Part shown: in pieces, positions 1-41,269 of the stretch | How the letters are laid out: every line of letters begins with the position of its first letter | Position numbering within the stretch: the first letter of the stretch is position 1 | The notes under the pieces: generated by a model | Database searches by the model: none | Told to the model about the DNA's origin: nothing | The model's input: the letters and a program-made list of their open reading frames with translations, nothing else | Translations under genes and position numbers: made by a program | Source: Ignavibacteriota bacterium | Lineage (GTDB): Bacteria > Bacteroidota > Ignavibacteria > UBA10030 | Direction of reading: 5' to 3' | DNA length: 42,448 bases | NCBI GenBank assembly: GCA_003155495.1 | Contig: PMDB01000068.1 | Location: forward strand, 1-42,448

Positions 1-2985
1 TCATCGTCTGGCAGCGATGCCAACGACGGAAAGTCAACAACGGCCCCCTGGAAGACAATTTCCAAAGTGAATTCAGTCACGTTTGTATCCGGTGATGCAA
101 TTTCCTTTCAAGGCGGAGATTCATTCTTCGGCCAAATCAATGTCAACCAATCAGGTGTCACTATCGGAGCCTATAATGACGGCGTTCAAAAGCCGGTCAT
201 TACCGGAGCCACTCAGCTTTCCGGCTGGACGGTCTATAGCGGCTCGATCTATGTGGCACAAGCATCATCGCTGGTAAAGAATCTTTTCTCCAACGGCGTT
301 CAAATGACGCTCGCGCGTTATCCGAATACTGGATTTCTTACCATCGGAACCACCAACGGCTCAACGACAATTACGGCAACAGGACTCAACCAGGCGTCAG
401 GTTATTGGAACGGTGCGAATCTCCGCATCAGAACTATCCAATGGACGTTTGAGACTCGTACTGTTTCATCATATAATGGAACAATGGTCACTCTTTCAAG
501 TGCGCCGGATTACCCCCCCATAGTGGGTTGGGGATTCTATCTGGACAATAAACTTGCCGCACTGGATGCTCCCGGCGAATGGTACTGTGATCCCAGTACT
601 AATAAAGTGTATTTCTATGCTCCAGGCGGTGTTGACCCGAACACTCTGAGTGTTGCAGGCACTGTTTTCGACTATGGCGTCTACAGTAGTTCTCAAAGCA
701 ACATCACGGTTCAAGGCCTGGAATTCAGATACCAAGCTCAGGCGGCTCTTATGTTCCACTTCGGAAATACCAATATTCGTCTTCTTTCCAATGAGATCTT
801 CGGTGGATCGGTGTATGGCATTCAATTTGATGCGGCGTCTTCGAGTTGTACTATCGACCGCAATACTATTGAGCAAGTCAATGGCGTCGGTATCAGTGTG
901 GTGTCTGCTAACAATTTTGTAATTTCGAACAACGTGATCAAGAATGTTGGCTTGGTTCAAGGTTATGGAAAAAGTGGACTCAGTGGGATGACGGGAATCT
1001 TGGTGAGCGGTTCCGGCAATACGATGAGCGGCAACAGTGTTGACAGTGTAGGGTATAATGGAATTACCGCATACGGCTCAAACTCTCTTGTTGAGAACAA
1101 CGTGGTAACCAATGTCATGCTGAAATTGGCTGATGGCGGTGCCATCTACACGTACGACGGAAATGCACAGACGATACGTAACAATATCATTTCCAACTCG
1201 GTTGGGAATAAGGATGGTGCTACTCATCCCGAGTACAAAGAAACAAACGGAATTTACCTGGACGGGGGAAGTCACGATATACTTGTTGAAGGCAACACGG
1301 TGTCTCACGTGAGCACTGATGGCATATACTTTCAATATTTCTCATATCGCAATACTATCCGCAACAACATGCTCATGGATTGCGACCTTGATACTCATGG
1401 CGATTTTCTTAACATCCTTCAGAACACCAACTATTCCTATGGACAGCATGTCATCACGCATAATGTCTTCAGTCCTAAAACCTCCATTCAGAGACTGGTT
1501 CTCTTAGAAGAGGACGAGGTGTCCTCGGTACTTCATTCGCCGGGGGTTATCGACAGCAATTATTACTTGAATCCATACGGTAATACTATTCCATTTGGAA
1601 CACTCCTCAATAAATCTGGTGGTTATTCGGGGGATAATTATTCATTCGCAGGGTGGAAGACCGCGACAGGCCTGGATGCACACTCAAAGTATATTATTCC
1701 GGCTTCCTATCAACGTGACACCGTATTCATCAATAGCACAGCAAATCCCGTGATGGTGAACCTGCCTCCGGTTTTCTTCTACGACCTTGACAATAATAGT
1801 GTCGTAGGATCATTTATACTTGCCCCATTCTCGTCAAAGATACTCATTCGGGATACTGCGCGCGTGATACCAGGTAACACGACCATAACAGCGAGTCCCT
1901 CATCATTATCGTTTGGCAATGTTATCAGCAATACGATATCAAGTGAGCGGACATACACTCTTTCCGGTTTAAACCTTACGCCTGCAAGTGGAAATATCAT
2001 AGTCACGGCTCCATCAACTGCTTATCAGGTTTCGTTGACAACAGGATCAGGATTTGGTTCTTCACTGAATGTCTCATATACAGGTGGAACACTTTCAGCG
2101 AAAACAATTTATGTCAGGTTCTCTCCGAAGGCTGTGCAGAGCTACAATGACGATATCATGAATTTAGGCGGTGGGGCATCAACTCAATATGTTGCGGTGA
2201 CCGGAACAGGCATCTCCCCACCAACACCCACACTGACCATAAACCCGACATCTTTATCCTTTGGGAATGTTATCATCAATACAATATCCAGCGAGCAGAC
2301 ATATATAGTAACGGGATCGAACTTATCGCCTGCGGTTGATTCTCTTACCATTACAGCGCCATCGGGATTTACGCTATCAACGGTCAGCGGCTCAGGGTTT
2401 ACTTCATCAAAAAGAATACCGTATACAGGCGGAGCACTTTCAGCGAAAACAATTTATGTCAGGTTCTCTCCAGTGGCTGTGTCAGGCTATGGCGGCAATA
2501 TAACGAATGCAGGAGGAGGTGCGGCAACAAAAAATGTGTCTGTAACCGGCACCGGTATCAGCAGTGCTTCACCGGTCATTACCATCAATCCAGGAACACT
2601 TGCATTTGATACTGTAATCGTGAATACAATATCAAGCGAGCGGACATATATAGTATCAGGATCGAACTTAACGCCTGCAGCTGACTCACTTACCATTACA
2701 GCGTCATCGGGATTTACACATATCAACGGTAAGCGGCTCAGGGTTTACTTCGTCAAAAAGAATACCCTATACAGGAAAAACACTTTCAGCGAAAACAATC
2801 TATGTCAGGTTTTCTCCGACAACGGTGCAGAGTTACAATGGTACTCTTACGAATGCAGGAGGAGGCGCGGCAACAAAAAATGTGTCTGTAACCGGCAGTG
2901 GTATCAGCAGTGCTTCACCGGTCATCACCATCAATCCCATATCACTTGCATTCAGTACTGTTCGTACAAATACAAATTCGAGTGA
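1..2985 (+). CDS. T9SS-type surface beta-helix protein, 5' fragment (partial, frameshifted)
   Basis: The frame is open from base 1, so the true start and any signal peptide lie outside the window; the first in-window start codon (GTG at 67) is probably internal. Roughly codons 1-600 have the Asn/Ser/Gly-rich texture of a right-handed parallel beta-helix (repeated N-x-I/V and NNxI rungs such as 'TIRNNIISNS' and 'ILVEGNTVSHV'), as in polysaccharide-degrading or -binding surface proteins. Ig-like repeats of about 110 residues follow from about 1885. Around 2718 the reading frame breaks: the other repeats read GF-T-I-S-T-V-S-G-S, but here one extra A gives GFTHINGK and then nonsense to the stop at 2985. 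Coding similarity continues in frame +2, so this and the 2825-5926 entry are one gene of more than 1970 codons. The enzymatic activity, if any, is unknown. The frameshift may be a sequencing error or real inactivation. Confidence 0.8.
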   Translation, partial: SSSGSDANDGKSTTAPWKTISKVNSVTFVSGDAISFQGGDSFFGQINVNQSGVTIGAYNDGVQKPVITGATQLSGWTVYSGSIYVAQASSLVKNLFSNGVQMTLARYPNTGFLTIGTTNGSTTITATGLNQASGYWNGANLRIRTIQWTFETRTVSSYNGTMVTLSSAPDYPPIVGWGFYLDNKLAALDAPGEWYCDPSTNKVYFYAPGGVDPNTLSVAGTVFDYGVYSSSQSNITVQGLEFRYQAQAALMFHFGNTNIRLLSNEIFGGSVYGIQFDAASSSCTIDRNTIEQVNGVGISVVSANNFVISNNVIKNVGLVQGYGKSGLSGMTGILVSGSGNTMSGNSVDSVGYNGITAYGSNSLVENNVVTNVMLKLADGGAIYTYDGNAQTIRNNIISNSVGNKDGATHPEYKETNGIYLDGGSHDILVEGNTVSHVSTDGIYFQYFSYRNTIRNNMLMDCDLDTHGDFLNILQNTNYSYGQHVITHNVFSPKTSIQRLVLLEEDEVSSVLHSPGVIDSNYYLNPYGNTIPFGTLLNKSGGYSGDNYSFAGWKTATGLDAHSKYIIPASYQRDTVFINSTANPVMVNLPPVFFYDLDNNSVVGSFILAPFSSKILIRDTARVIPGNTTITASPSSLSFGNVISNTISSERTYTLSGLNLTPASGNIIVTAPSTAYQVSLTTGSGFGSSLNVSYTGGTLSAKTIYVRFSPKAVQSYNDDIMNLGGGASTQYVAVTGTGISPPTPTLTINPTSLSFGNVIINTISSEQTYIVTGSNLSPAVDSLTITAPSGFTLSTVSGSGFTSSKRIPYTGGALSAKTIYVRFSPVAVSGYGGNITNAGGGAATKNVSVTGTGISSASPVITINPGTLAFDTVIVNTISSERTYIVSGSNLTPAADSLTITASSGFTHINGKRLRVYFVKKNTLYRKNTFSENNLCQVFSDNGAELQWYSYECRRRRGNKKCVCNRQWYQQCFTGHHHQSHITCIQYCSYKYKFE

Positions 2986-5635
2986 ACAGACATATACCGT
3001 GCAAGGCTCAAATTTGTCGCCGGCAAGCGGAAGTATTACCGTAACTTCGTCGTCTGTATATCAAGTATCTGTCACCAGCGGTTCGGGGTTTGGTTCTTCA
3101 CTGAATGTCTCCTATACAGGCGGTACGTTATCTTCAACAACAATCTATGTCAGGTTTTCTCCGACGGCTGTGCAGAGTTATAATGCAACTATCAGTAATG
3201 CAGGAGGCGGGGCAATAACACAGAATGTCGCAGTGACCGGAACAGGCGTCTCCGCCACAACACCCGCGCTGAAGGTAAACCCGACATCTTTATCATTTGG
3301 GGATGTTGTCATCAATACGGTATCAAGCGAGCTGACGTATACATTAACAGGATTGAACTTATCGCCTGCAACTGACTCACTTACCATTACGGCGTCATCT
3401 GGATTTACCATATCAACGGTAAGCGGCTCAGGGTTTACTTCATCAAAAAGAATAGCATATACAAGCGGAACACTCCAACCCATACCGAAAATAATCTATG
3501 TAAGATTTTCACCAACGGCTGTACAGAGCTATTATGGCACTATCACGAATTCAGGCGGCGGTGCGGCAGAGCAGATTGTTGCAATAGGTGGTAGTGGTAT
3601 TAATACACCACCACCTCTCCTGACAGTAAACTCGACATCATTGTCTTTTGGAAATGTTATTATCAATGAAACGTCGAATGTACAGGCTTACGCATTAACG
3701 GGATCGAACTTATCACCTGAAAGTGGAAATATCACAATCACTGCACCGACAGGATTTCAGGTGTCGTCAACATCTGGTTCGGGCTTTGACTCATCCATGA
3801 CAATTTCCTATACCGGGGGGGCATTTTCTGCGAAGACGATCTATGGACGATTCTTGCCAACAGTACCGCAGGCCTATAGCGGAAGCATCACAAACATCGG
3901 AGGCGGCGCAACGCCCACGAATGTACCTGTGAGCGGGAGCGGCGTAGAGCCGACGATAACAGTGAGTCCCCTCTCTTTACCGTTTGGCGGTGTTGTACTG
4001 AATACATCAAGTGAACGGACATACACACTTTCCGGTTTAAACCTTTTGCCTGCAAATGGGAATATTATAATCACAGCTTCATCAACGGCTTATCAGGTTT
4101 CCTTGACAACAGGATCAGGATTTGGTTCATCGGTAAGCGTACTTTATTCGGGAGGAGCAATATCTTCACCCGCAACAATTTTTGTGAAGTTCTTGCCAAC
4201 GGTGGAACAAAGTTATTCCGAAAATATCACAAACACCGGAGGCGGTGCTGCAATGCAAAATGTATCGGTAAGCGGGATAGGGGTATCTGCATCGGCTCCA
4301 TTACTAACAACAAATCCTTCATTACTATCATTTGACAACATCACAATAAACACCCTATCTCCGGAAAAGGCCTACACTCTTTCCGGTTTAAACTTATCGC
4401 CAGCAATCGATTCTCTTACCATTACAGCGCCATCGGGATTTACAATATCAACTGTAAGCGGTTCGGGTTTTACTTCGTTAAAAAGAATACCATATACAGG
4501 TGGAACATTGTCAGCGAAAACCATCTATGCAAGATTTACGCCGACAACGGTGCAGGATTATTCCAGTACCATCACACATGCAGGAGGTGGTGCAGCAGCA
4601 CAAAGCGTGTCGGTGAGTGGTAGCGGTGTAGCACCGGCAATACTCGTGAGTCCAGCATCATTACCGTTTGGCAGCGTTATTATTAATTCATCAAGTGAAT
4701 TGACATACACACTTTCCGGTTTGAACTTGCAGCCTGCAAATGATACTGTGAGAATAACAGCGCCAATCGGATTTACCATATCGACCGCAAGCAGTTCGGG
4801 TTTTAACTCTTCTCTCAATCTTCCTTATACAACCAGTACTTTGTCTTCAACCACAATCTATGTACGATTTTCTCCAGTGGCAGTGCAGACCTATAGCGGC
4901 AATATTACGAACAATGGCGGCGGAGCGGTAACTCAGAATGTGCCGGTAAGCGGAGAAAGCATTACTCCGTTGCTTACGGTGAGTTCATCTTCGGTAGCCT
5001 TCGGAAATGTTCCCATACATGCAACATCTGCTGAATCGACGTTCACCATAAAAGGTTCAAACTTAACGCCTGCAATAGGGAATATTATTGTGACGGCTCC
5101 GTCCGGTTTTGAAGTGTCTATAACAACCGGTTCGGGTTTTAACTCTTCCATCAACATCCTTTATACCGCCAGTACTTTATCTTCAACCACAATCTATGTC
5201 AGGTTTTCTCCAACGGCAATGCAGAGCTACAGTGGCAATATTACGAACGATGGAGGTGGTGCGACAACACAAAACGTGACCGTAAGCGGAACAAGTGCAA
5301 ACGCTGCTTCTTTAAGTTTGAGTGCAGCATCTCTCTCTTTCGGTGATGTGACAATCAATGCACTATCGCGTGAGAAATCATATACAATTTCTGGAACAAA
5401 TTTGATAGCCAGCGGAATTATCGCAATAACCTCGTCAAAAGGATTTCAAGTATCAGCGACAAGCGGTGCTGGATTTGATTCATCTATTTCTATCTCCTAT
5501 GCCAGTGATACGTTATCGGCAAGATCTATTTATGTTCGATTTTCTCCAACCGTTGTGGAGAATTACAATGGCAACATTACACATGCGGGGGGTGGAGCAC
5601 CTGCACTCAATGTTTCAGTAAGTGGTGCCGGTTTA
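1885..5635 (+). repeat. Eleven tandem Ig-like repeat units of about 330-345 bp
   Basis: Unit starts, judged from the recurring (L/I)-x-(V/I)-x-P-x-S-L-x-F pattern, fall near 1885, 2231, 2575, 2921, 3268, 3618, 3952, 4301, 4640, 4969 and 5312. The units differ mostly by substitutions, but some stretches are nearly identical in DNA: 2511-2591 and 2857-2937 differ at about 4 of 81 positions. The spacing of that pair is 346 bp, not a multiple of three, which independently marks the single-base insertion in unit 3. The units resemble BACON/ASH-like or 'choice-of-anchor' stalk domains common in proteins with type IX sorting tails, where they act as spacers. Confidence 0.85.
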
Positions 5636-5926
5636 CCCGCTAATGAGATTGTTCAACTAGGCCAAAATTTCCCTAATCCCTTCAATCCAAACACGAAAAT
5701 CCCATATTCTGTTTTTAAGAAGTCGTGGGTGAAATTGACTATCTTCAATATACTCGGACAACGAATTAGTACATTGATCGACAAAGAGCAAGATGTAGGG
5801 TACTATCAACCGGAATTCGACATCGCCAAAACCAACAATAAAGTAGATTTAGCATCAGGTGTTTATTTTTACCGGTTAGAGATAGCCGGGGTTTCAATTA
5901 CAAAAAAGTTTTTAGTGTTAAAATAG
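2825..5926 (+). CDS. T9SS-type surface beta-helix protein, 3' fragment: Ig-like repeats plus type IX sorting domain
   Basis: This is the 3' portion of the gene that starts before the window. The listed start (GTG at 2825) is only the first start codon in this frame; homology to the neighbouring repeats already begins at about 2719, directly after the presumed one-base insertion. It carries the end of repeat 3 and repeats 4-11. Each repeat begins with a pattern like LTVNPTSLSFGNV, has a central GSNLSPA and ends IYVRFSPTAVQSY...NAGGGA...VSGTG. The last 90 or so residues form a Por/T9SS type A sorting domain (NFPNPFNPNTKI, then FNILGQRI, then LASGVYFYRL, ending KKFLVLK). That domain predicts translocation through the outer membrane by the type IX system and attachment to, or release from, the surface. 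The protein is not obviously linked to the capsule locus downstream. Confidence 0.85.
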   Translation: MQSYNGTLTNAGGGAATKNVSVTGSGISSASPVITINPISLAFSTVRTNTNSSEQTYTVQGSNLSPASGSITVTSSSVYQVSVTSGSGFGSSLNVSYTGGTLSSTTIYVRFSPTAVQSYNATISNAGGGAITQNVAVTGTGVSATTPALKVNPTSLSFGDVVINTVSSELTYTLTGLNLSPATDSLTITASSGFTISTVSGSGFTSSKRIAYTSGTLQPIPKIIYVRFSPTAVQSYYGTITNSGGGAAEQIVAIGGSGINTPPPLLTVNSTSLSFGNVIINETSNVQAYALTGSNLSPESGNITITAPTGFQVSSTSGSGFDSSMTISYTGGAFSAKTIYGRFLPTVPQAYSGSITNIGGGATPTNVPVSGSGVEPTITVSPLSLPFGGVVLNTSSERTYTLSGLNLLPANGNIIITASSTAYQVSLTTGSGFGSSVSVLYSGGAISSPATIFVKFLPTVEQSYSENITNTGGGAAMQNVSVSGIGVSASAPLLTTNPSLLSFDNITINTLSPEKAYTLSGLNLSPAIDSLTITAPSGFTISTVSGSGFTSLKRIPYTGGTLSAKTIYARFTPTTVQDYSSTITHAGGGAAAQSVSVSGSGVAPAILVSPASLPFGSVIINSSSELTYTLSGLNLQPANDTVRITAPIGFTISTASSSGFNSSLNLPYTTSTLSSTTIYVRFSPVAVQTYSGNITNNGGGAVTQNVPVSGESITPLLTVSSSSVAFGNVPIHATSAESTFTIKGSNLTPAIGNIIVTAPSGFEVSITTGSGFNSSINILYTASTLSSTTIYVRFSPTAMQSYSGNITNDGGGATTQNVTVSGTSANAASLSLSAASLSFGDVTINALSREKSYTISGTNLIASGIIAITSSKGFQVSATSGAGFDSSISISYASDTLSARSIYVRFSPTVVENYNGNITHAGGGAPALNVSVSGAGLPANEIVQLGQNFPNPFNPNTKIPYSVFKKSWVKLTIFNILGQRISTLIDKEQDVGYYQPEFDIAKTNNKVDLASGVYFYRLEIAGVSITKKFLVLK

Positions 5927-10698: not shown

Positions 10699-10741
10699 GC
10701 GTTTGGAATCTGGAATCTCACCATTACGTGGAAAGGTCAGT

Positions 10742-11317
10742 ATGAAATTATTTTACAGATTTGCATGTGCCGGATTTTTGATGTTGTGTCTGACAGTCGT
10801 GCATGCACAGGAAAATTCGAGCAGTCTTCTTTCGGCGACATCAGATAAAACGACAAGTACCAACTATTATTTTGCCCGTCCCAACGACCTCACACTGATC
10901 GTCAATGTGATGGGATTTGTTCAACGGCCCGGCAGGTACGAAATAGCGAGTTCGATCGATCTCATGAACCTGATTTCTCTGGCAGGTGGGCCGACAGCAG
11001 ATGGTTCAATGAGTAAAGTGAAGATCATCCGCATAATCAAAGATGGAGAAAAGACAGTGCGCCAGGATATTCAGCCTGATCAGAAAACTCTTTCCGTTTT
11101 TCTCAAAGAAGAAGCAAAAGTCACCCGGCGGGAAATTCAGCTTGATCTCGATAATCTTTCAACTGTTCGGCCGGAAGATTTGCAGCTGATGCCGGGGGAT
11201 ATTGTCTTTATGGACCGCACAACCTGGTCAACGGTTCGAGACGCATTTGGAGTGGTTGTCTCGGCGGCGGTTATCACGGCAGCTGTTGCACAGGTTATTT
11301 ATGCTACAAAGCATTAG
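10742..11317 (+). CDS. SLBB-domain polysaccharide export protein
   Basis: The chosen ATG at 10742 has a GGAAAGG ribosome-binding site 5 bases upstream and begins a clear signal peptide (MKLFYRFACAGFLMLCLTVV, cut near HAQ). The frame is open farther upstream, but that part overlaps wzc and has no signal sequence. The mature protein of about 170 residues has one SLBB fold (V-M-G-F-V-Q-R-P-G-R-Y, then L-I-S-L-A-G-G-P-T-A-D-G) and a C-terminal hydrophobic segment (about 172-188). It lacks the N-terminal polysaccharide-export domain and a lipobox. It is therefore a small SLBB partner rather than a full Wza. Placement directly after wzc supports a role in export; another gene outside the window may supply the outer-membrane channel. 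Confidence 0.82.
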   Translation: MKLFYRFACAGFLMLCLTVVHAQENSSSLLSATSDKTTSTNYYFARPNDLTLIVNVMGFVQRPGRYEIASSIDLMNLISLAGGPTADGSMSKVKIIRIIKDGEKTVRQDIQPDQKTLSVFLKEEAKVTRREIQLDLDNLSTVRPEDLQLMPGDIVFMDRTTWSTVRDAFGVVVSAAVITAAVAQVIYATKH

Positions 11318-11320
11318 TGG

Positions 11321-11842: not shown

Positions 11843-13150
11843 ATGACATTACACGAAGAGCTCTTACAAAACGTCGAACATAAAAAAACGGTGGTTGGAG
11901 TAATCGGTCTCGGTTATGTAGGCCTTCCGCTGATTCTCTGTTTTGCCGAAAAGGGTTTCAGGTCGATCGGATTCGATATCGATACGAAGAAAACCGGGGC
12001 GCTCATGCGCGGCGAATCCTATATCAAACATATCCCGGCGGAGCGTATCCAAAAAGCTATGAAGAGCGGATTGTTCTCTGCGGTTGCAGACTTCGCACGC
12101 GTGAAAGAATGCGATGCCATTCTCATAGCGGTGCCAACCCCTCTGAACAAGAATCGTGAACCAGATGTCCAGTATATCGTTTCATCGTGTGAAGCGATTG
12201 CCCCGTATGTGCGAAAAGGACAATTGATCGTTCTGGAGTCGTCGACCTATCCCGGAACGACCGATGAGGTGATGATCCCCATTCTGGAGAAAGGGGGATT
12301 GAAAGTGGATAAGGATTTCTTTGCTGCATTCTCGCCGGAGCGGGAAGATCCTGCCAATAAAGATTACCGCACCGAAACGATTCCTAAAGTTGTGGGTGCA
12401 ACATCACCCGAAGGACTGGCTGTTGCAGAGAAACTGTATCAGCAAATTGTTATCCGAACAGTTCCCGTTTCATCGACAAGAGCGGCAGAAGCAACAAAAC
12501 TGCTGGAAAATACATTTCGGGCAATCAATATTGCCTTGGTGAATGAACTGAAAATGACATTTATGAAGATGGGGATTGATATTTGGGAAGTGATCGATGC
12601 GGCAAAAACAAAACCTTTTGGATTCATGCCGTTCTATCCGGGACCCGGACTTGGCGGACATTGCATACCTATCGATCCGTTCTATCTGACCTGGAAAGCA
12701 CGTGAGTATGGTGCCTCAACGAAGTTTATTGAATTAGCCGGTGAAATTAATATTGCTATGCCTGATTTTGTCATTCATCGTGCCATGGAAGTTCTGAATG
12801 ACCAACATAAATCTGTGAAAGGATCCCGGATACTTCTCCTCGGTCTTGCCTATAAGTCCAATGTTGACGATGACCGTGAGTCTCCATCTTACCGTCTGAT
12901 GGAAAAGCTGGAAGAGCTTGGCGCTACGGTGAGTTACAACGATCCGTATATACCTGTCATCCCTATGACGAGGGAGTACGAAAAATTTGCAGGACGTACT
13001 TCTGCGGCAATATCGGCGAATTTTGATTTGATCATTATCGTAACAGCCCACGATGAATATAAAACACTCGATGTACAGAATCTCCAAGTACCGATCCTTG
13101 ATACAAGGAATATTATACGGCAACCACATCCAATACTCTATAAAGCATAA
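11843..13150 (+). CDS. wbpA: UDP-N-acetyl-D-glucosamine 6-dehydrogenase (WbpA type)
   Basis: This 435-residue UDP-sugar dehydrogenase has an N-terminal Rossmann motif VIGLGYVGLP, a middle domain with ESSTYPGTT and the catalytic Cys274 in GLGGHCIPIDPFYLTWKA. It oxidises the C6 hydroxyl of a UDP-hexose to the uronic acid with two NAD+. The wording of the active-site segment and the adjacency to wbpB- and wbpD-like genes point to UDP-GlcNAc as substrate, giving UDP-GlcNAcA as in Pseudomonas O-antigen synthesis. It starts 9 bases after the antiterminator gene. UDP-ManNAc or UDP-Glc specificity cannot be wholly excluded from sequence alone. Confidence 0.9.
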   Translation: MTLHEELLQNVEHKKTVVGVIGLGYVGLPLILCFAEKGFRSIGFDIDTKKTGALMRGESYIKHIPAERIQKAMKSGLFSAVADFARVKECDAILIAVPTPLNKNREPDVQYIVSSCEAIAPYVRKGQLIVLESSTYPGTTDEVMIPILEKGGLKVDKDFFAAFSPEREDPANKDYRTETIPKVVGATSPEGLAVAEKLYQQIVIRTVPVSSTRAAEATKLLENTFRAINIALVNELKMTFMKMGIDIWEVIDAAKTKPFGFMPFYPGPGLGGHCIPIDPFYLTWKAREYGASTKFIELAGEINIAMPDFVIHRAMEVLNDQHKSVKGSRILLLGLAYKSNVDDDRESPSYRLMEKLEELGATVSYNDPYIPVIPMTREYEKFAGRTSAAISANFDLIIIVTAHDEYKTLDVQNLQVPILDTRNIIRQPHPILYKA

Positions 13151-13200
13151 GGAGAACGTACAACATTTGTTAGATACAATTGTGTTGTGGTTCCTCGTGA

Positions 13201-13443
13201 TTGCGTACATGCCTCGCATGCCGTTTGGCCCTCCATCGTGATCTTGTGACACTGACAAGCGTAAATGTTCAGACAATATTTACTGACACACGACCAGGAG
13301 ATGTAAAGCACTCTTTGGCCTCGATAGAATTATCGAAGAACAAGCTTGGCTCTTGAAGGGATGTGGATTGGCGGAATGGTTTGAAAAAGACAGTTGAATG
13401 GTACAAAGAAAAACATGAGAAGAAGCCCGGAATCTACATCACG
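13201..13443 (+). pseudogene. 3' remnant of an NAD-dependent nucleotide-sugar epimerase/dehydratase
   Basis: One frame of this spacer reads F-T-D-T-R-P-G-D-V-K-H-S-L-A-S-I (around 13273-13326), then S-K-N-K-L-G, a TGA stop at 13354, then R-D-V-D-W-R-N-G-L-K-K-T-V-E-W-Y-K (13357-13407). This is the typical C-terminus of extended SDR sugar epimerases (consensus RPGDVRHSxADIxKAxxxLG followed by GLxxTVxWY). No start or Rossmann domain remains, so it is a decayed gene tail of some 80 codons. The remnant is in the same frame as wbpB and no stop separates them after 13356, so a naive gene call would fuse it to wbpB from the GTG at 13363. Its donor was plausibly a UDP-GlcNAc(A) 4-epimerase; the exact substrate cannot be told. 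It fills most of the 311-bp gap 13151-13461. Confidence 0.75.
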
Positions 13444-13461
13444 TCGAAAAGAGAGACAGTC

Positions 13462-14439
13462 ATGAACTTCGCTATCACCGGAGTCTCCGGCTATATCGCA
13501 CCGCGACATCTTAAAGCTATCCGTGACACAGGAAACCGTCTTGTTGCCGCCACGGATCCCCATGATTCGGTGGGGATTCTCGACCAATATTCATTTGATG
13601 TTCGCTACTTTCCTGAGATCGAGCGATTCGATCGCCATCTTGATAAACTTCGGAGGGGTTCGGATCAAGAGAAAGTGCACTGTGTAAGTATATGCTCTCC
13701 GAACTACCTGCACGATGCGCACATGCGTCTTGCGCTACGAGCGGGAGCAGACGTAATTTGTGAGAAGCCGCTTGTCATTAATCCCTGGAATCTTGATGCA
13801 CTCCACCTGCTTGAAAATGAAACCGGGAAAAGAATCAATACGGTGCTCCAACTGCGGGTGCATCCAGCGCTCGTAGAGTTGAAGGCCAAGTTCGATCATG
13901 AAGGACCCCCTCGTTCGAAGCGTGATGTCGTCGTTACATATGTTACAGGCCGGGGATCATGGTACCTGATGTCCTGGAAAGGATCGGAGGAACGGTCAGG
14001 CGGCTTAGCCACGAACATCGGGATTCATTTTTTCGATCTTTTGATGTGGCTCTTTGGAGGAGTGCAACGCAGTGAACTACACTTGCGGCAGCCAAAGCGT
14101 ATGGCGGGATTCATTGAATTGAAGCATGCCAACATACGATGGTTTCTTTCTGTTCATCCTGAAGATTTGCCTTTTTCTGCAGAAGCAGGGAAAAAGGCGA
14201 CCTTCCGATCAATCACTGTGGATGGGCAGGAATTAGAATTCACAGAGGGGTTCACGGACTTACACACGCGTATCTATGAAAAAACCATCAAGGGCGATGG
14301 ATTTGGAATCGAAGATGCTCGGCCATCGATCGAACTAGTTCACACGATCAGGACTTCTCCTCTTGTGTACGAGAATGGTACCGCTCATCCCTTCTTGCTG
14401 GAAAACAAAGCATTTCTCGACGGCTTGAGTCACGGATGA
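13462..14439 (+). CDS. wbpB: UDP-GlcNAcA 3-dehydrogenase, Gfo/Idh/MocA family (WbpB type)
   Basis: The ATG at 13462 starts MNFAITGVSGYIAPRHLKAI, matching the WbpB N-terminus and giving 325 residues, close to the usual 315. The frame extends upstream, but that sequence belongs to the epimerase remnant. An N-terminal nucleotide-binding fold (ITGVSGYIAPRH) and the family motif E101-K102-P103 (DVICEKPLVINPWN) are visible. The enzyme oxidises C3 of UDP-GlcNAcA to the 3-keto sugar, which a PLP aminotransferase (WbpE) then aminates. No WbpE is in the window. It is followed after 10 bases by wbpD. Confidence 0.88.
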   Translation: MNFAITGVSGYIAPRHLKAIRDTGNRLVAATDPHDSVGILDQYSFDVRYFPEIERFDRHLDKLRRGSDQEKVHCVSICSPNYLHDAHMRLALRAGADVICEKPLVINPWNLDALHLLENETGKRINTVLQLRVHPALVELKAKFDHEGPPRSKRDVVVTYVTGRGSWYLMSWKGSEERSGGLATNIGIHFFDLLMWLFGGVQRSELHLRQPKRMAGFIELKHANIRWFLSVHPEDLPFSAEAGKKATFRSITVDGQELEFTEGFTDLHTRIYEKTIKGDGFGIEDARPSIELVHTIRTSPLVYENGTAHPFLLENKAFLDGLSHG

Positions 14440-14449
14440 GGTAACCATT

Positions 14450-15094
14450 ATGGCGTATTTCAAACATGAATCGGCGTTTGTGGATGAACCTTGTACGATA
14501 GGAGATGGCACGAAGATCTGGCATTTTTCGCACATCCAAAAAGGGGCTGTGATTGGCGCCAATTGCATCTTCGGCCAAAACTGTAATGTTGCAAATGATG
14601 TGGTGATCGGGTCGAATGTGAAAGTTCAGAACAACGTGTCGATATATACGGGAACGACAATCGAAGATGACGTTTTTCTAGGGCCGTCGTGCGTTTTAAC
14701 AAACGTAACCAACCCGCGTTCCCAGGTGAACCGGCACAGCCTGTATGAACAAACAGTATTAAAGCGCGGCTGTACCATTGGTGCTAATGCGACTATCATT
14801 TGCGGCGTCATAATTGGCCGGTACGCCTTCGTCGCGGCAGGAGCTGTTGTGGCAAAAGATGTTCCGGACTACGCCCTTGTCATTGGAGTTCCGGGAAAAC
14901 AAGTCGGATGGATGAGCAGGCATGGCCATAGATTATCATTCGATAACTCCGGAGTTGCAGTGTGTCCGGAGAGCGGCCTGCATTACAAGAAGACGAGCGA
15001 ACAAGTACGTTGCCTTGACTTGGATGAGGACTCTCTTCTCCCTGAAGGACTTCGCCAAGGGACGAAGCCCTACGACACCTTCAGGGTTGGCTAA
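14450..15094 (+). CDS. wbpD: UDP-2-acetamido-3-amino-glucuronate N-acetyltransferase (WbpD type)
   Basis: This 214-residue left-handed beta-helix acyltransferase has hexapeptide repeats (CTIGDGTKIW, VIGANCIFGQN, VIGSNVKVQNN, TIGANATIICGVIIGRYAFVAAGAVV). The segment GPSCVLTNVTNPRSQVNR is characteristic of the WbpD/WlbB group. The C-terminal tail has the Cys-containing GVAVCPESGLHYKK...VRCLD found in that group. It acetylates the 3-amino group using acetyl-CoA, giving UDP-GlcNAc(3NAc)A. It starts 10 bases after wbpB. Together with wbpA and wbpB it marks a 2,3-diacetamido-uronic acid branch. A ribosome-binding site (GAGGTAA) sits just upstream. Confidence 0.9.
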   Translation: MAYFKHESAFVDEPCTIGDGTKIWHFSHIQKGAVIGANCIFGQNCNVANDVVIGSNVKVQNNVSIYTGTTIEDDVFLGPSCVLTNVTNPRSQVNRHSLYEQTVLKRGCTIGANATIICGVIIGRYAFVAAGAVVAKDVPDYALVIGVPGKQVGWMSRHGHRLSFDNSGVAVCPESGLHYKKTSEQVRCLDLDEDSLLPEGLRQGTKPYDTFRVG

Positions 15095-15241
15095 GTTGTG
15101 AAAATCCTTACACCGAGTTGTTGAGAGTAATGCCTCAATCCATCTAGCCTATGGCCTCAGTCAAGCTGTCCACTCCACGCTGCGGATCACCACAGAGCAG
15201 CATCATGATGACAATGATCTTCCCCGTTCTTTCGGACACCG

Positions 15242-15492
15242 AGAAAACGTACTATTCATCAGATCATCATTGTTGAGGGTGTATGTCCATCAGGCGCTGC
15301 CATAGTACCACCCTTGGAAGGGCGTTCGCCTGAAGGCACCTTAAAAGTGCTCCATGTATTTAAATATGCGGAAGAGCACACAAAAGAAAATACGAATGTC
15401 CTCGATGAGGAATATGCAGATGCGTTCTGGCTCAAGTGAAGATGAGATTTCAGAGGCTTGTGCATGCGTGGCTTTCGTTGCCACCTGTAATG
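15242..15492 (+). pseudogene. Decayed family-2 glycosyltransferase fragment
   Basis: The 657-bp spacer 15095-15751 is not empty. From 15257 one frame reads H-Q-I-I-I-V-E-G-V-C-P-S-G-A-A-I, then R-S-P-E-G-T-L-K-V-L and A-D-A-F-W before a stop at 15437. After a one-base shift it continues E-D-E-I-S-E-A-C-A. The intact glycosyltransferase at 33903 reads HQIIVVEGACPSAAAV, STDGTLEVL, TDGFW and KNEMSQAYA in the same order. This is therefore a frameshifted remnant of a paralogue of that gene. The upstream and downstream parts of the spacer show no further recognisable coding sequence. Confidence 0.7.
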
Positions 15493-15579
15493 TATAGCGC
15501 ATACGATACAATGTTTAACAAACTGATCAACGAAGATTGCTGTTGGACAGAAAATATTTTTATCTCTGAGGATTAAATT

Positions 15580-15601
15580 CTCCTCCGCTTGCGGCGGGGA
15601 G
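15580..15601. repeat. GC-rich imperfect hairpin between wbpD and wzx
   Basis: CTCCTCCGC (15580-15588) faces GCGGCGGGGAG (15591-15601) and is followed by CTTTATTTGATTC. The loop is very short and the pairing imperfect, so a terminator is possible but weak. A similar GC-rich element lies at 18668-18685, suggesting a dispersed intergenic element. Confidence 0.3.
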
Positions 15602-15751
15602 CTTTATTTGATTCTTTACGAAAAACTCATAAAAAAATGAAGAATAAAACTTCTTGAGGCTTATATAAAAAATATTTTTCCAGGCCTCAGGTCCAAAATA
15701 GCCAACAACCCCCAGGCTTTTCGTTCTGTCGCAGCACTTTTTGGCGGCAAT

Positions 15752-16948
15752 ATGGCGGCTTCTTTATTCGGATTTCTGGGCGGTCTGATTGCTGCACGTA
15801 TTATCGGACCTGAAGAGACCGGGCTTTTTAAAGCCTTCACGATCCCTCTGACGTATCTCACGGTTTTGCACCTTGGGACTTTTGACGGACTCTGGCGTCA
15901 GATCCCTTATTACGTTGGAAAAAAGATGCCGCAGAAGGTTGAAGCTCTTGCCTCAAGCGCTGGTGCCTGGAACATTCTTGTTTCGATCATCGTCTCGATC
16001 GGATTCATTATCTGTGCACTTTACAGCTTGTGGCACCACGACTATTATGGTGTTGTCGGTTGGATCACTCAAGCGATTTGTTGCTGGGGGACCTTTTATG
16101 CCGGATACCTTGCCGCCACCTACCGGACTATCCATCAATTTGAAGCTCTCGCCCGCATCACGTTGGTAAGGGCAATAGTGAATTTTGGAATGGTTTTAGT
16201 GTTGCCTTTTTTAAGATTCTATGGGCTCTGCATTCGTAACGCCTCCCCATTCATCACCGGGGTTTGGCTTTTGCATCGCAACCGTCCACTCAAAGTGCAC
16301 TATCATTTTGATGCCAAAACTCTTATTGATCTTCTTAAGATAGGCTTTCCGTTCAGTTTTTGGGGCACACTCTATTCGTCAGTTTGGGTTGCTACTGAAA
16401 GTGCCTTGATTCTTTCGTTTGGTGGTGTCACCGCCTTGGGGTTTTTTACAGTGGCAATAGTCTTGCGCGATGGCATATGCGTGCTGCCTAATGCGATTAC
16501 TCAGGTTCTGTTGCCCCGTGCCGTCGAAGGCTTTGCTCAAGATGGAAGCGTCCGCAACGCCAATGCAAAATCTGCATGGCTGACTGTGGGGCTTACCGCA
16601 TTCATGGTTTTGATCGTTCTCGTCGTTTCGTATTCAATTGATTTTCTTGTACCGCTTGCCATCCCTAAATATGTTGACGGCATTCCACTTATGAATATAT
16701 GCCTCTGGTTTGCCGTCGTTCAAACCGCATCTTTACCTCTCAACACTCTTTTTGCAACAGGCAGATCGTGGCTTTATGGCAGGGGGGTCATCGTCGGGTT
16801 CGTTGTTTTTGCGTTGGCTGCCTATTTGCTGACTCCGACATTTGGTGGAGTTATCGCAGTTGCCATTGGGTCGTTGTTGGGACGTACTGCCAGAATAATT
16901 GTTGCCTATTTAGAAATCTTTATGTTAATTCGACGTGAAGCCTTATGA
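15752..16948 (+). CDS. wzx: Polysaccharide flippase (Wzx / MATE-like oligosaccharide exporter)
   Basis: This 398-residue integral membrane protein, with about a dozen hydrophobic segments, has the N-terminal flippase signature (LFGFLGGLIAARIIGPEETG). It moves lipid-linked repeat units across the inner membrane. The first ATG in frame is at 15752, but coding-like sequence continues upstream in the same frame to 15641 (N-I-F-P-G-L-R-S-K-I-A-N-N-P-Q-A-F-R-S-V). A plausible ATG at 15637 lies one base out of frame. The true N-terminus is probably about 38 residues longer and disrupted by a one-base indel, or it uses a non-standard start. The last four bases overlap the next gene. The family is clear; the substrate is not. 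Confidence 0.85.
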   Translation: MAASLFGFLGGLIAARIIGPEETGLFKAFTIPLTYLTVLHLGTFDGLWRQIPYYVGKKMPQKVEALASSAGAWNILVSIIVSIGFIICALYSLWHHDYYGVVGWITQAICCWGTFYAGYLAATYRTIHQFEALARITLVRAIVNFGMVLVLPFLRFYGLCIRNASPFITGVWLLHRNRPLKVHYHFDAKTLIDLLKIGFPFSFWGTLYSSVWVATESALILSFGGVTALGFFTVAIVLRDGICVLPNAITQVLLPRAVEGFAQDGSVRNANAKSAWLTVGLTAFMVLIVLVVSYSIDFLVPLAIPKYVDGIPLMNICLWFAVVQTASLPLNTLFATGRSWLYGRGVIVGFVVFALAAYLLTPTFGGVIAVAIGSLLGRTARIIVAYLEIFMLIRREAL

Positions 16949-21922: not shown

Positions 21923-22219
21923 AGTCGCAATCTTTGCATAACAGCTGGAACGAGAACATTTCGAAATGCCATACTACGAAGGTTTCTAAAGACAGACATT
22001 GCAGAGATTCGCATTCTAAGCAGAGATGAAAAAAAGCAGTAAGAAATTCGCATGAGCTATGCGAATGATAAAATCAAATCATACATCGGGGATATTCGCG
22101 ATTATCGATGTGTCTATGACGCATTTTCTGGAGGTGATTACGTTTTTCATGTTGTTGTATTGAACCATGTTCCATCATGTGAGTTCTATCCTCGTGTCGG
22201 ATTATCTAAATGTTTTTAA
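21915..22219 (+). pseudogene. 5' remnant of a second capE-like UDP-GlcNAc 4,6-dehydratase gene
   Basis: The spacer begins with ATGTTTA, like the intact capE at 40244, and after a one-base deletion reads F-R-N-A-I-L-R-R-F-L-K-T-D-I, then SRDEKKQ, an in-frame TAA (about 22039), K-S-Y-I-G-D-I-R, D-Y-V-F-H and V-P-S-C-E-F-Y-P. By hand about 57 of 85 positions match the intact capE. It ends at a stop at 22217 after roughly the first 90-100 of 341 codons, so the rest of the gene is gone. Its ATG overlaps the stop of the upstream glycosyltransferase. It accounts for the whole 309-bp gap before the ChbG-like gene. Confidence 0.85.
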
Positions 22220-22231
22220 GCGAGAGGGTAT

Positions 22232-22981
22232 GTGAAACTGATTGTCAATGCCGATGATTTTGGCCTTTCTTCTGCCGTGAATGAAGCGATCATGCGAGCA
22301 TTTGAAATGGGAATAATCGACCGCACATCTGCAATAGCAAATGCTCCTTATTTTGCGGACGCATGTCAACTGGCCATTGAGAAAGGGTTCGAGAATCGTG
22401 TTGGCGTTCATTTCAATATTTTGGAAGGAAGAGCTATCAGCTCTAAGATTGCCGACATTCATCCTTTCCATTCGAAAGGTGGAATGTTTACATATCAACG
22501 CAATGCGAAACTATTCCTTTCGAGACGCGAAATGGAAGCCATTTCCGCTGAATGTGATGATCAAATCCGAAGATTCCACGATCATGGATTGTATCCAACT
22601 CGTTTTGATTCACATGAACACGTGCACACTGAATGGTTCATTTTTCGAGCAATAGAACCAGTACTAAGAAAATATGGATTCTTGTCCGTCCGTATATCCC
22701 AGAACATCGGGGAGTTCTCATTTGGAAATAAAGCGTACAAAGGAATCTTCAATTACTACTTGAAAAGACGAAAATGGAATTGCGAAGCGTTCAGTGGCGA
22801 ATACCGTGCTTTTGTGAGACTCAAGGCATTTTCTAATATGACAAATGGCACTGCAGAAGTTGTGGTTCATCCTACTCTTAGTTCCCGCGGAGTTGTGATC
22901 GATGCAGCGTCCGGAGAAGAACTGGCTCCACAGATTAAGAACCTGAGAGGACTGAATCAGTCTTATGGCCAGCCCTTTTGA
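22232..22981 (+). CDS. Carbohydrate deacetylase, ChbG/YdjC family
   Basis: This 249-residue protein has the family's N-terminal metal-binding motif VNADDFGLS (D8, D9), the central SHEHVH (H128, H130) and a C-terminal VVVHPTLSSRG His. ChbG/YdjC enzymes remove N-acetyl groups from small N-acetylated saccharides using a divalent metal. In this setting it may deacetylate a lipid-linked sugar or repeat unit, which is inference. The start is GTG at 22232 with GAGAGGG three bases upstream; an ATG two bases earlier is out of frame. Length is normal for the family. A decayed paralogue tail lies at 25767-25976. Confidence 0.87.
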   Translation: MKLIVNADDFGLSSAVNEAIMRAFEMGIIDRTSAIANAPYFADACQLAIEKGFENRVGVHFNILEGRAISSKIADIHPFHSKGGMFTYQRNAKLFLSRREMEAISAECDDQIRRFHDHGLYPTRFDSHEHVHTEWFIFRAIEPVLRKYGFLSVRISQNIGEFSFGNKAYKGIFNYYLKRRKWNCEAFSGEYRAFVRLKAFSNMTNGTAEVVVHPTLSSRGVVIDAASGEELAPQIKNLRGLNQSYGQPF

Positions 22982-25770: not shown

Positions 25771-25976
25771 AATTGGAGCGTGATTATTCCCGTTTTTCTC
25801 CGCAGGTCTGTTCTGGCTGCCTCGAACTGGATGCAATTTCAAGCATGAAAGATTCTATCCTTGAAGTTATAGTTCATCCGAATTTTATTTCTCACGGAGT
25901 ATTGGTAGATGCATTATCGGGAGAAAAACTTGCACATCAGCTTAAGAAGCTGAAAGAACTCGAGGAAAAGGCTTGA
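25767..25976 (+). pseudogene. 3' remnant of a second ChbG/YdjC deacetylase gene
   Basis: This 69-codon reading frame contains A-I-S-S-M-K-D, then L-E-V-I-V-H-P-N-F-I-S-H-G-V and L-V-D-A-L-S-G-E-K-L-A. The intact ChbG-like protein at 22232 ends AFSNMTNG, AEVVVHPTLSSRGV, VIDAASGEELA in the same order. Only the C-terminal quarter remains, and the N-terminal NADDFG metal motif is missing, so it cannot be an active enzyme. It overlaps the upstream deacetylase stop (ATGA) and the downstream glycosyltransferase start (TTGA), so it may still be translated as a short peptide. Confidence 0.8.
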
Positions 25977-30792: not shown

Positions 30793-30801
30793 CCTGTCGG
30801 G

Positions 30802-31017
30802 GCGACTGCCACTCTAAACGAAGCAATGAGGGAGGGGTGTGCATTTGTTGGAACGGATTCAGCCGGAGCCTCGAGTGTGATGATCCCGCACGGCGAAAAT
30901 GGCTTTCTTTTTCAGTCTGGTAATGTTGATCGTCTGGCAGAGCTACTATGTGAATTGAGTTCCAATCGTCCACTGCTTGTCAGATGAGTGGCCGAAGGTC
31001 AAAAGAAAGACTATTGA
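30802..31017 (+). pseudogene. 3' remnant of a family-4 glycosyltransferase
   Basis: Frame +1 reads N-E-A-M-R-E-G-C-A-F-V-G-T-D-S-A-G-A-S-S, then HGENGFLFQSGNVDRLAEL, a TGA at 30985 and a short tail. This is the classic GT4 C-terminus (EAMREGCxxVGTDxxGxxE followed by HGENGxLFxxGDxxxLA). No start, N-terminal domain or intact terminal helix is present. It fills most of the 348-bp spacer 30793-31140; the last 120 bases show nothing recognisable. Confidence 0.82.
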
Positions 31018-31140
31018 TAGTTACTGGTCACCAGCCGTGGCGGCCTTGAGATTGTTAATGATACGTGATTCGCTCCTCTCCCGTCGGAGTCCGGAGTTGT
31101 TCGATGGTGGATCAATATCAAGCACATGGAAATAAGAGAC

Positions 31141-32283: not shown

Positions 32284-32430
32284 TAACTTTTTAATGATGT
32301 ACGTGAATGAGATTCTCTCGGAAAAAATCGAGATGGAAATGGTATATCTCTCGCATCGGGCTATTTTCGTTGTTACACACCAGTTGAAGATTTATCGGCA
32401 GGTGATTGCCGAAAGCAATAAGAGAAACCA

Positions 32431-33902: not shown

Positions 33903-34985
33903 ATGACAATCAAGCTTACCTTCGGGATGATAGTTCTTAATGGGGAGCCGTTTCTGCGCTATAATTTACGTTCTCTTTATCCCTTCGCACATCAAATCAT
34001 AGTAGTTGAGGGTGCATGTCCTTCTGCTGCTGCTGTTGCGACGGCAGATGGGCACTCCACAGATGGCACACTGGAAGTACTCAAAGACTTTAAGCATTCT
34101 GAAGACCCCGAAAACAAGATATTCATTGTTACCGCCTGTGACGAAGGATTTACTGACGGATTTTGGCCGGGGAAAAATGAAATGTCTCAAGCCTATGCCA
34201 AGCGTGCCACCGGAAACTACCTTTGGCAGGTAGATTCTGACGAATTCTACCATGAGATACAAATGTCTAGATTGATAACTCTTCTCGAAAGAGAACGACC
34301 GGACGCAGTATCTTTCCCGATGATTACATTTTGGGGTGGGCTGAACTACGTTGCGAACGGTTTTTATCTAATTCGCGATGCTCCAGAATATCATCGACTG
34401 TTTTCATGGAAAGCTGGCTATACGTACAAATCTCATTTTCCTCCGAAAGTATACGATGAACGTGGCGTAGATTTGAAAAAGAAGAATTGGTTAAGGGCAA
34501 AAAAACTCGAGAAGGAAGGCATTTTTTTCTATCATTATTCCCTGCTCTTTCCATTGCAAGTTTATAACAAGGTCAAGTACTACAAGGAACGGAACAAGAG
34601 TCAAATCGCATCATGGGAAGAATCGGTCTATCGCCGTCTTGAAAAACCATTTCGTGTCCACAATGTCTATTGGTCTATTAGTTGGCTCGAACGTTTCTGT
34701 GGGGATCATCCAAGTCAGGTATTGGCAATGATGAATGATGTCAACAATGGCACTATCGTCATCGAAAAGAGGGATTGTGCGGATGTCGAACGTTTGTTGT
34801 CAAGGAGTATGTATGTTCATGCCACCGTGGTTCTGAGAATGGTAGCACGAATATCATTTTATCAACCCTTTAAATTTATCCGCCGAGCATATTCTTCTTT
34901 TATCTATAGAAGCAGTAGATTGTGGAAAGCTATCTGGACGAATCCAACTTCTACTTCTACTGTTGTTAAAGAACATTTCGACTGA
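33903..34985 (+). CDS. Glycosyltransferase, family 2-like
   Basis: This 360-residue GT-A type enzyme has an N-terminal LTFGMIVLNGEPFLRYNLRS, then IIVVEGACPS and the metal/nucleotide-binding D-x-D in WQVDSDEFY (D111-S-D113). The central region is Tyr/Trp-rich and the C-terminus basic and amphipathic, possibly membrane-associated. Such inverting enzymes use a nucleotide sugar donor and act at the inner face of the inner membrane. GAGAGGA sits just upstream of the ATG. A frameshifted remnant of a paralogue is at 15242-15492. Confidence 0.85.
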   Translation: MTIKLTFGMIVLNGEPFLRYNLRSLYPFAHQIIVVEGACPSAAAVATADGHSTDGTLEVLKDFKHSEDPENKIFIVTACDEGFTDGFWPGKNEMSQAYAKRATGNYLWQVDSDEFYHEIQMSRLITLLERERPDAVSFPMITFWGGLNYVANGFYLIRDAPEYHRLFSWKAGYTYKSHFPPKVYDERGVDLKKKNWLRAKKLEKEGIFFYHYSLLFPLQVYNKVKYYKERNKSQIASWEESVYRRLEKPFRVHNVYWSISWLERFCGDHPSQVLAMMNDVNNGTIVIEKRDCADVERLLSRSMYVHATVVLRMVARISFYQPFKFIRRAYSSFIYRSSRLWKAIWTNPTSTSTVVKEHFD

Positions 34986-36578: not shown

Positions 36579-36790
36579 TAAAAGTTCACTCCGATGATGC
36601 GAAGAATTTGATGGTCCGAAGTCTGTTCGGAGATTGGTCCCGGGAAAATATTACACAGATTTATACGAATTGTTACTCTGGAACAGGTGAATTCTGCGGA
36701 GAATATTATGCAATTGGTCGCAAAGAACGAAGGCTCGGCAGAATTTTCGGATTGTTGAAGCTCGCAGCAGCGATGGACTTAAACGGATGA
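36575..36790 (+). pseudogene. 5' remnant of a DDW-group glycosyltransferase gene
   Basis: The 71-codon frame reads H-S-D-D-A-K-N-L-M-V-R-S-L-F-G-D-W, then I-T-Q-I-Y-T, then E-F-C-G-E-Y-Y-A-I-G-R-K-E-R-R-L-G and I-F-G-L-L-K. The intact proteins at 20531 and 32431 have SLRNWF, QIYTG, FCG..F.IG..ERRLG.LF..LK in the same order. The frame then ends, and traces (a W-E-Y-F segment like GLWELIFPP) may continue to about 36850. It is the head of a third copy of the 20531/32431 lineage. It fills most of the 353-bp spacer 36579-36931. Confidence 0.8.
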
Positions 36791-36931
36791 TGAACATCTG
36801 GGAATATTTTTGCCTTGGTTATGGAAGTGGCTTACAAGTCAATCGTAGCGTCATGATCTAGTCAATTCTTCGCAAAAGTTAAGACAGATTTGCTTCAAAT
36901 ACATTCTGTTCGATAAAGGAGAAGATCGATT

Positions 36932-40243: not shown

Positions 40244-41269
40244 ATGTTTAGTAATAAAAACCTTCTCATCACAGGCGGCACTGGCACATTTGGTAATGCC
40301 GTACTTCGCCGTTTCCTGAAAACGGATATCAAAGAAATCCGAGTCTTTAGTCGTGATGAAAAAAAACAGGAAGAAGTGCGGATGCATTACAATAATTCAA
40401 AGGTTAAATCGTACATCGGCGATGTTCGCACATATGATTCTATTGCATCGGCGATGAACGGCGTGGATTATGTGTTTCATGCAGCCGCACTCAAACAAGT
40501 GCCATCGTGTGAGTTTTATCCGCTTGAAGCTCTTCGCACAAATGCTCTTGGCGCGGAAAATGTTATGAGCGCCGCAATTGCAAACGGCGTAAAGCGCGTC
40601 ATTGTTCTCAGCACCGATAAGGCCGTCTATCCGATCAATGCCATGGGTATCTCCAAGGCGATGATGGAAAAACTCATGGTTGCGAAGTCACGGCAAGTGA
40701 GCAAATCCGGAACAGTGCTCTGCGGAACACGGTACGGTAATGTGATGGCCTCGCGCGGATCAGTGATTCCGTTATTCATACAGCAAATACGGGAAGGGAA
40801 GCCCCTCACCGTTACCGAGCCCAATATGACCCGTTTTATGATGTCGATTGAGGATGCCGTCGACCTAGTGCTCTACGCGTTTGAACATGGAACTCAGGGA
40901 GACATATTTATTCAGAAAGCTCCTGCCGCAACAATTGAAACACTCGCCCAGGCTGTAAAGAAGATCTTTCGTGCAAAGAATCCCATCGAGGTTATTGGAA
41001 CTCGGCATGGAGAAAAACAATATGAAACGCTCCTGACACGTGAAGAGCGTGCGATGGCAGAAGACCGCGGCAATTATTTTCGCGTGAAGGCGGATAACCG
41101 AGACCTCAACTATAATTCGTTTTTCTCAGAAGGGAAAACCGAAATCGCAACATTGGAAGACTTCAATTCAAACAACGCACATATCCTCAATGTAGATGAA
41201 ATGGCAGAACTCCTTCTGTCGCTGGAATATATTCAATTGGAGCTTAAATCTTTAAAAATAAATCCTTGA
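40244..41269 (+). CDS. capE: UDP-N-acetylglucosamine 4,6-dehydratase (CapE/WbjB type)
   Basis: This 341-residue extended SDR has the NAD(P)-binding LLITGGTGTFGNAVLRRFLK, FSRDEKKQEEVR, DYVFHAAALKQVPSCEFYP and STDKAVYP, with M134-G-I-S-K138 where classical SDRs have Tyr-x3-Lys, as in CapE/FlaA1-type inverting dehydratases. It converts UDP-GlcNAc to the 4-keto-6-deoxy sugar with C5 inversion, the first step to UDP-L-FucNAc. AAAGGGTAACAACC precedes the ATG. Its pairing with capF is diagnostic. A decayed copy of its 5' third is at 21915-22219. Confidence 0.93.
   Translation: MFSNKNLLITGGTGTFGNAVLRRFLKTDIKEIRVFSRDEKKQEEVRMHYNNSKVKSYIGDVRTYDSIASAMNGVDYVFHAAALKQVPSCEFYPLEALRTNALGAENVMSAAIANGVKRVIVLSTDKAVYPINAMGISKAMMEKLMVAKSRQVSKSGTVLCGTRYGNVMASRGSVIPLFIQQIREGKPLTVTEPNMTRFMMSIEDAVDLVLYAFEHGTQGDIFIQKAPAATIETLAQAVKKIFRAKNPIEVIGTRHGEKQYETLLTREERAMAEDRGNYFRVKADNRDLNYNSFFSEGKTEIATLEDFNSNNAHILNVDEMAELLLSLEYIQLELKSLKINP

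Follow-up and report, generated by a model that had tools for sequence, protein, structure and literature searches.

In the window, the 42,448-nucleotide stretch of an Ignavibacteriota bacterium genome analysed here, the interval between wbpA and wbpB very probably holds the decayed gene of an SDR 4-epimerase that formerly stood directly behind wbpA. The segment at 13225-13416 on the forward strand, which reads in the wbpB frame as LALHRDLVTLTSVNVQTIFTDTRPGDVKHSLASIELSKNKLGS, a TGA stop (13354-13356) and then RDVDWRNGLKKTVEWYKEKH, is by its sequence a remnant, by descent, of the C-terminal ~64 residues of a WbpP/WbgU/TviC-type epimerase. The genes around it are intact and lie on the same strand. 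On its 5' side is a wbpA-like gene for a UDP-sugar 6-dehydrogenase (11843-13150, 435 aa; TIGR03026, E 8.5e-125), whose end is separated by 311 bases from the ATG of wbpB at 13462. The wbpB gene (13462-14439, 325 aa), encoding a UDP-GlcNAcA 3-dehydrogenase, matches the WbpB structures 3oa2 (E 1.9e-101) and 3o9z (E 8.5e-99), and the next pathway gene, for a wbpD-like N-acetyltransferase (14450-15094, 214 aa), is recognized by hexapeptide acyltransferase models. The order wbpA-wbpB-wbpD also occurs at locus L017 of the same-genus genome G002, the nearest relative with wbpB.

The initial annotation had pointed to two C-terminal motifs of SDR sugar epimerases with one TGA between them, and this was borne out by three kinds of search. 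RPGDVKHS (13291-13314) and GLKKTVEWYK (13378-13407) lie in one frame, and tblastn with an intact epimerase (L114:4088-5074) as query matched 13225-13404 with 57% identity over 60 residues (E 6e-17). The NCBIfam TviC model matched the 55-residue tail at model positions 293-342 of 348 (E 2.5e-8). When 15 intact homologues were combined into a profile (328 positions), a frameshift-aware alignment against it scored 181 half-bits; 30 dinucleotide shuffles averaged 30 and reached 57 at most, and the reverse strand gave 31. Pfam gave no epimerase match on the short tail, only a sub-threshold unrelated one. All seven columns that are invariant across the 15 intact homologues are retained in the remnant, as are 14 of the 16 that are conserved in 13 or more of them, and because these columns survive, the decay looks fairly recent.

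Most of the gene is missing. The remnant aligned to profile positions 267-328 of 328, so ~260 codons are absent, and no trace of the 5' half of the epimerase was found in the window. The catalytic Ser and YxxxK are also gone, as the YAVSK of intact relatives precedes the aligned part. In 13151-13230, an N-terminal epimerase trace (profile columns 1-40, including the GxxGxxG NAD-binding Rossmann motif) did not score above shuffles; a degenerate epimerase start there, suggested by eye and by a GERTT/LLD match from the aligner, was dropped for the same reason. At the other end, 13417-13461, the last 15 codons before wbpB, resemble nothing. Epimerase similarity had been claimed across 13201-13461, and this extent holds for 13225-13416 only. 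With both the NAD-binding motif and YxxxK lost, the remnant retains no enzymatic function. An intact homologue occupies the corresponding place in L114, and the copy in the window is disabled by the ~260-codon deletion and the TGA, as in a pseudogene.

We propose that an SDR nucleotide-sugar 4-epimerase gene of the WbpP/WbgU/TviC family once lay directly 3' of wbpA, that a deletion would have removed ~260 codons of its 5' part, and that a substitution would have produced the TGA. Loss or displacement of the epimerase's own stop codon would then have let the remaining frame run into wbpB. The deletion is placed in 13151-13224, the stretch without recognizable epimerase similarity. At the start of that stretch an AAGGAG (13149-13154, forward strand) overlaps the wbpA stop and is a possible orphan ribosome-binding site; none is present at the equivalent place in the same-genus copy L129. 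The motif is perhaps what remains of the deleted gene's start, a reading made after the motif had been seen.

The nearest intact homologue places the remnant within the family. For the L114 protein, the best solved structures were capsule protein 10ke (E 2.6e-82), WbpP 1sb8 (E 8.4e-79) and WbgU (E 6e-77), and the best NCBIfam model was TviC, yet under its cut-off (280 of 760 bits). Compared with WbpP and TviC, L114 is missing an N-terminal stretch (residues 2-3 align to positions 18-29). The remnant is 57% identical to the L114 group versus 32-33% to the WbpP/TviC-like genes at L056 and L044, two loci from Campylobacterales; an epimerase at G054:C301, which we take to be glucuronate-epimerase-like, shows 28% identity to the tail. 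Over 59 aligned columns, the L114 copy, which belongs to genome G054, was 56% identical to the remnant versus at most 49% to the 14 other intact homologues. Like WbpP, WbgU and TviC, the remnant carries the C-terminal pattern RPGDVKHS...LG...GLKKTVEWY and adjoins a gene for a WbpA-type dehydrogenase; unlike them, it amounts to about one fifth of a protein, contains a stop and has no NAD-binding or catalytic motif. A paralogue from the same genome was also considered as the source of the fragment. Of the 16 places in this genome with an SDR of the PF16363 family, the eight with loci were compared; the best of these eight was 35% identical to L114 and the tail matched four at 26-33%, and the paralogue was rejected as source.

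Gene order in G054, a member of another family of the order, supports a former position behind wbpA. Its locus L114 runs wzc, export gene, nusG-like gene, wbpA and intact epimerase, and the window has the same order upstream of the remnant. The wbpA of the window is 74% identical to this copy and 84% identical to that of L017. Among 12 loci with neighbours examined, six (L114, L116, L122, L135, L141 and L156) have this epimerase type immediately after a wbpA-like gene. Across 39 wbpA loci of the order (38 genomes, window included), four have it directly downstream, in two others a small ORF is followed by an epimerase of another subfamily, and one has a more distant SDR (L134, 29%). The order in G160 is wbpA, epimerase, another 3-dehydrogenase-like gene and a wbpD-like gene.

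The remnant itself is carried by one genome only. A search with the tail matched 16 of 98 genomes of the order, including its own (15 others, E up to 1e-6); the matches in the others are not all beside wbpA, and two lie in short frames (139 and 64 residues). No close copy of the tail was found in the five other genomes of the same genus (0/5), and a phylum sample of 395 genomes, searched at a stricter cut-off, returned only its own genome and G160. In G002 (wbpA 84%, wbpB 80%), 216 bp separate the two genes, and this gap (L017:4785-5000) contains no epimerase trace. Related genomes were also searched for a complete epimerase between wbpA and wbpB, which was found in more distant genomes only. 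Among 80 wbpB loci of the genome collection these are L056 and L044, the latter having other sequence ahead of wbpB; further cases are L122, with a different 3-dehydrogenase, and G046, where the epimerase is of another subfamily. Directly upstream of wbpB in the same 80 loci, a WbpP/TviC-like epimerase was found once (L056) and a wbpA-like gene 13 times; in seven loci no upstream gene could be named or picked by script. The interval holds a deacetylase gene and a FemAB-like gene in G036, and a small ORF precedes the other epimerase in G046. Because its contents differ in this way among relatives, with none in G002, the wbpA-wbpB interval is a variable place.

The sequence from 13357 to the wbpB ATG is free of stops, as the initial annotation had stated, and the frame stays open to the end of wbpB. 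The longest ORF begins at a GTG at 13363 and ends at 14439, adding to wbpB a 33-codon extension (13363-13461) that is a mechanical ORF only. This open frame and its GTG could be taken as a nascent fusion, in which the 33-codon tail is translated from 13363, or the TGA is read through, to give WbpB an N-terminal extension. Of 2000 shuffles, though, 39% leave such a 15-codon stretch open, and one frame in three fits, so an in-frame junction is close to chance (~1/3 x 0.4) and needs no special explanation; the last 15 codons, moreover, are the ones without any resemblance. Nor do wbpB homologues naturally carry such an extension, an alternative that had been left open: upstream of the aligned wbpB start, the open extension in the 80 loci has a median of 2 codons and reaches at least 33 codons in only six. 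The extension peptide gave one short match against those loci, within a distant epimerase-like gene of L029. WbpB structures 3oa2 and 3o9z align from residue 2 of the window's wbpB, and its start site is shared with the 80% identical G002 copy. Judging from these alignments, translation of wbpB most likely begins at its own ATG (13462), which would correct a gene call placed at 13363. We rejected the fusion, which is extremely improbable, on the start-site evidence and the chance of an open frame.

The route by which the epimerase end came to lie behind wbpA is less settled. Rather than decaying in place, it could have arrived with a block (epimerase end, wbpB, wbpD) that recombined in with its break inside a donor epimerase and was joined behind wbpA, in which case the epimerase never functioned between wbpA and wbpB in this lineage; the segment would still be a gene remnant, differing only in its route. 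The traceless wbpA-wbpB junction of the same-genus locus fits such a scar, as do the differing contents of the interval in G002, G036 and G046, and an epimerase followed by wbpB, as a donor would have it, is present in L056 and also, though of another subfamily, in G054:C301. Other fragments of the cluster, described below, could be junction scars as well. We nevertheless regard this route as doubtful, since the closest intact homologue lies behind wbpA with the same upstream genes and the AAGGAG at the wbpA stop resembles the ribosome-binding site of a lost gene. An assembly or sequencing artefact, with an intact epimerase in the real genome that was collapsed or lost in assembly, is highly unlikely. 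The assembly is fragmented (119 contigs), the stop could be a read error, and a frameshift splits a large gene around 2700-2985; however, ~260 missing codons are beyond any base error, G002 shares the order of the flanking genes, and a search of the same genome with the tail found no second close copy. Decay of an epimerase gene behind wbpA is the reading we prefer, and it has to accommodate the absence of a close tail from the same-genus genomes, the empty G002 gap, the presence of the epimerase type behind only 4 of 39 wbpA genes, and a 5' half that left no trace in the window.

The gene names wbpD and wbpI belong to the pathway for UDP-ManNAc3NAcA. With the wbpA-wbpB-wbpE-wbpD-wbpI pathway for this sugar (wbpA, wbpB and wbpE: PMC10622841), the window shares homologues of wbpA, wbpB and wbpD in the same order; unlike that pathway, it shows no wbpE or wbpI homologue beside them. 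A DegT gene at C100:46649-47746 is ArnB-like, and WbpE was not among the eight structures listed for it. In the preferred explanation, the locus after the loss would keep wbpA-wbpB-wbpD, a route towards UDP-GlcNAc3NAcA.

PMC10622841 gives UDP-GlcNAcA as the product of WbpA and has WbpB oxidize it at C3, and PMC3628348 describes WbpP as preferring UDP-GlcNAcA/UDP-GalNAcA while also interconverting UDP-GlcNAc/UDP-GalNAc, and dehydrogenase-epimerase pairs as frequent in producers of UDP-GalNAcA. From this literature and the adjacency to wbpA, the intact enzyme most likely interconverted UDP-GlcNAcA and UDP-GalNAcA, or else UDP-GlcNAc and UDP-GalNAc. The initial annotation had suggested that an ancestral branch from UDP-GlcNAcA to UDP-GalNAcA was lost. 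Such a branch is plausible, though unproven, because WbpA makes UDP-GlcNAcA and WbpP prefers the UDP-GlcNAcA/UDP-GalNAcA pair, and the epimerase remnant beside wbpA, the closest intact homologue directly behind wbpA and the enzyme family all fit it; the same family is also active on UDP-GlcNAc/UDP-GalNAc. The word ancestral fares less well: since none of the five same-genus genomes has a close tail and the nearest relative has wbpA-wbpB without a trace, the branch need not date back to the genus ancestor and may have been gained, then lost.

The epimerase remnant is not alone in its cluster. A search of the window's gaps against ORFs from the loci under comparison revealed, between intact genes, no fewer than five additional gene fragments and a weaker one, all on the forward strand. 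Behind wbpD, the gap at 15095-15751 holds a glycosyltransferase-like fragment with stops around it; its match (~15257-15430) is 47% identical, across 60 residues, to an intact gene at 33903-34985. The N-terminal 90 residues of a FnlA-type dehydratase lie at 21923-22192 (gap 21923-22231); they are 66% identical to the intact fnlA-like gene at 40244-41269 and have an internal stop and an altered glycine motif. A C-terminal piece at 25771-25972 resembles the gene at 22232-22981 (47% over 49 residues), by its look presumably a ChbG/YdjC deacetylase. A 28-residue fragment at 32285-32368 (gap 32284-32430) is 79% identical to residues 172-199 of the ORF at C100:47766-48410 (L178:6767-7411), which we assume to be sugar-transferase-like. 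An N-terminal glycosyltransferase-like fragment with stops at 36579-36931 is 34-37% identical to intact genes at 32431 and 20531, and the weaker match, at 30793-31125, resembles the C-terminal part of a glycosyltransferase, with 34% identity across 61 residues (E 4e-4).

A second scan of this kind found fragments in 6 of the window's 22 gaps, in none of 19 gaps elsewhere on contig C100 and in none of 24 gaps from parts of three further contigs of this genome, a comparison made after the fragments had been seen and with a protein set rich in polysaccharide genes, which favours fragments in such clusters. Its mechanical gene picker drops some intact genes, and of eight matched gaps in the window, 961-2824 and 10699-11320 were removed as missed intact genes. 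In G002, the single matching gap of L179 was an intact nusG-like gene and L180 gave 0 of 4, and L190 of G041 gave 0 of 3; the matches in G036 and G046 (L184-L187) were counted without separating fragments from genes, and neither genome serves as a control. Tentatively, the fragments in ~24 kb of the cluster, at least six with a weak seventh, might all stem from a single process that recurred, in which cassettes were replaced and short deletions then arose where genes join. They would then record earlier polysaccharides of this lineage, among them one with a sugar of the GalNAc(A) type and a second sugar that depends on FnlA.

By itself, the epimerase remnant is ordinary gene decay, and remnants in O-antigen clusters are already known, such as those of wzy in Salmonella groups B1 and D1 (PMC3715488). 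Like the wzy remnants in that account, it is a truncated gene between working polysaccharide genes, and related clusters hold the intact form; unlike them, it derives from an epimerase, in an uncultured bacterium that offers no serotypes within the species from which the course of decay could be traced. Our literature search found no paper on a wbpP/wbpB epimerase pseudogene. The remnant shows a polysaccharide locus to have lost an epimerase and hints at a formerly different sugar coat; read together, the fragments could directly record a change of surface sugars in an uncultured lineage.

Two further features of the window were noted. The ORF at 15752, presumably flippase-like, continues upstream in frame for 37 codons (15641-15752, forward strand) without an ATG, GTG or TTG, as if its start had been lost or shifted. 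Near the beginning of the window, an apparent frameshift at 2700-2985 divides a large, repetitive gene of surface-protein type into two overlapping forward-strand ORFs (1-2985 and 2825-5926); a homologue of this gene in G002 has an open frame of 1828 residues.
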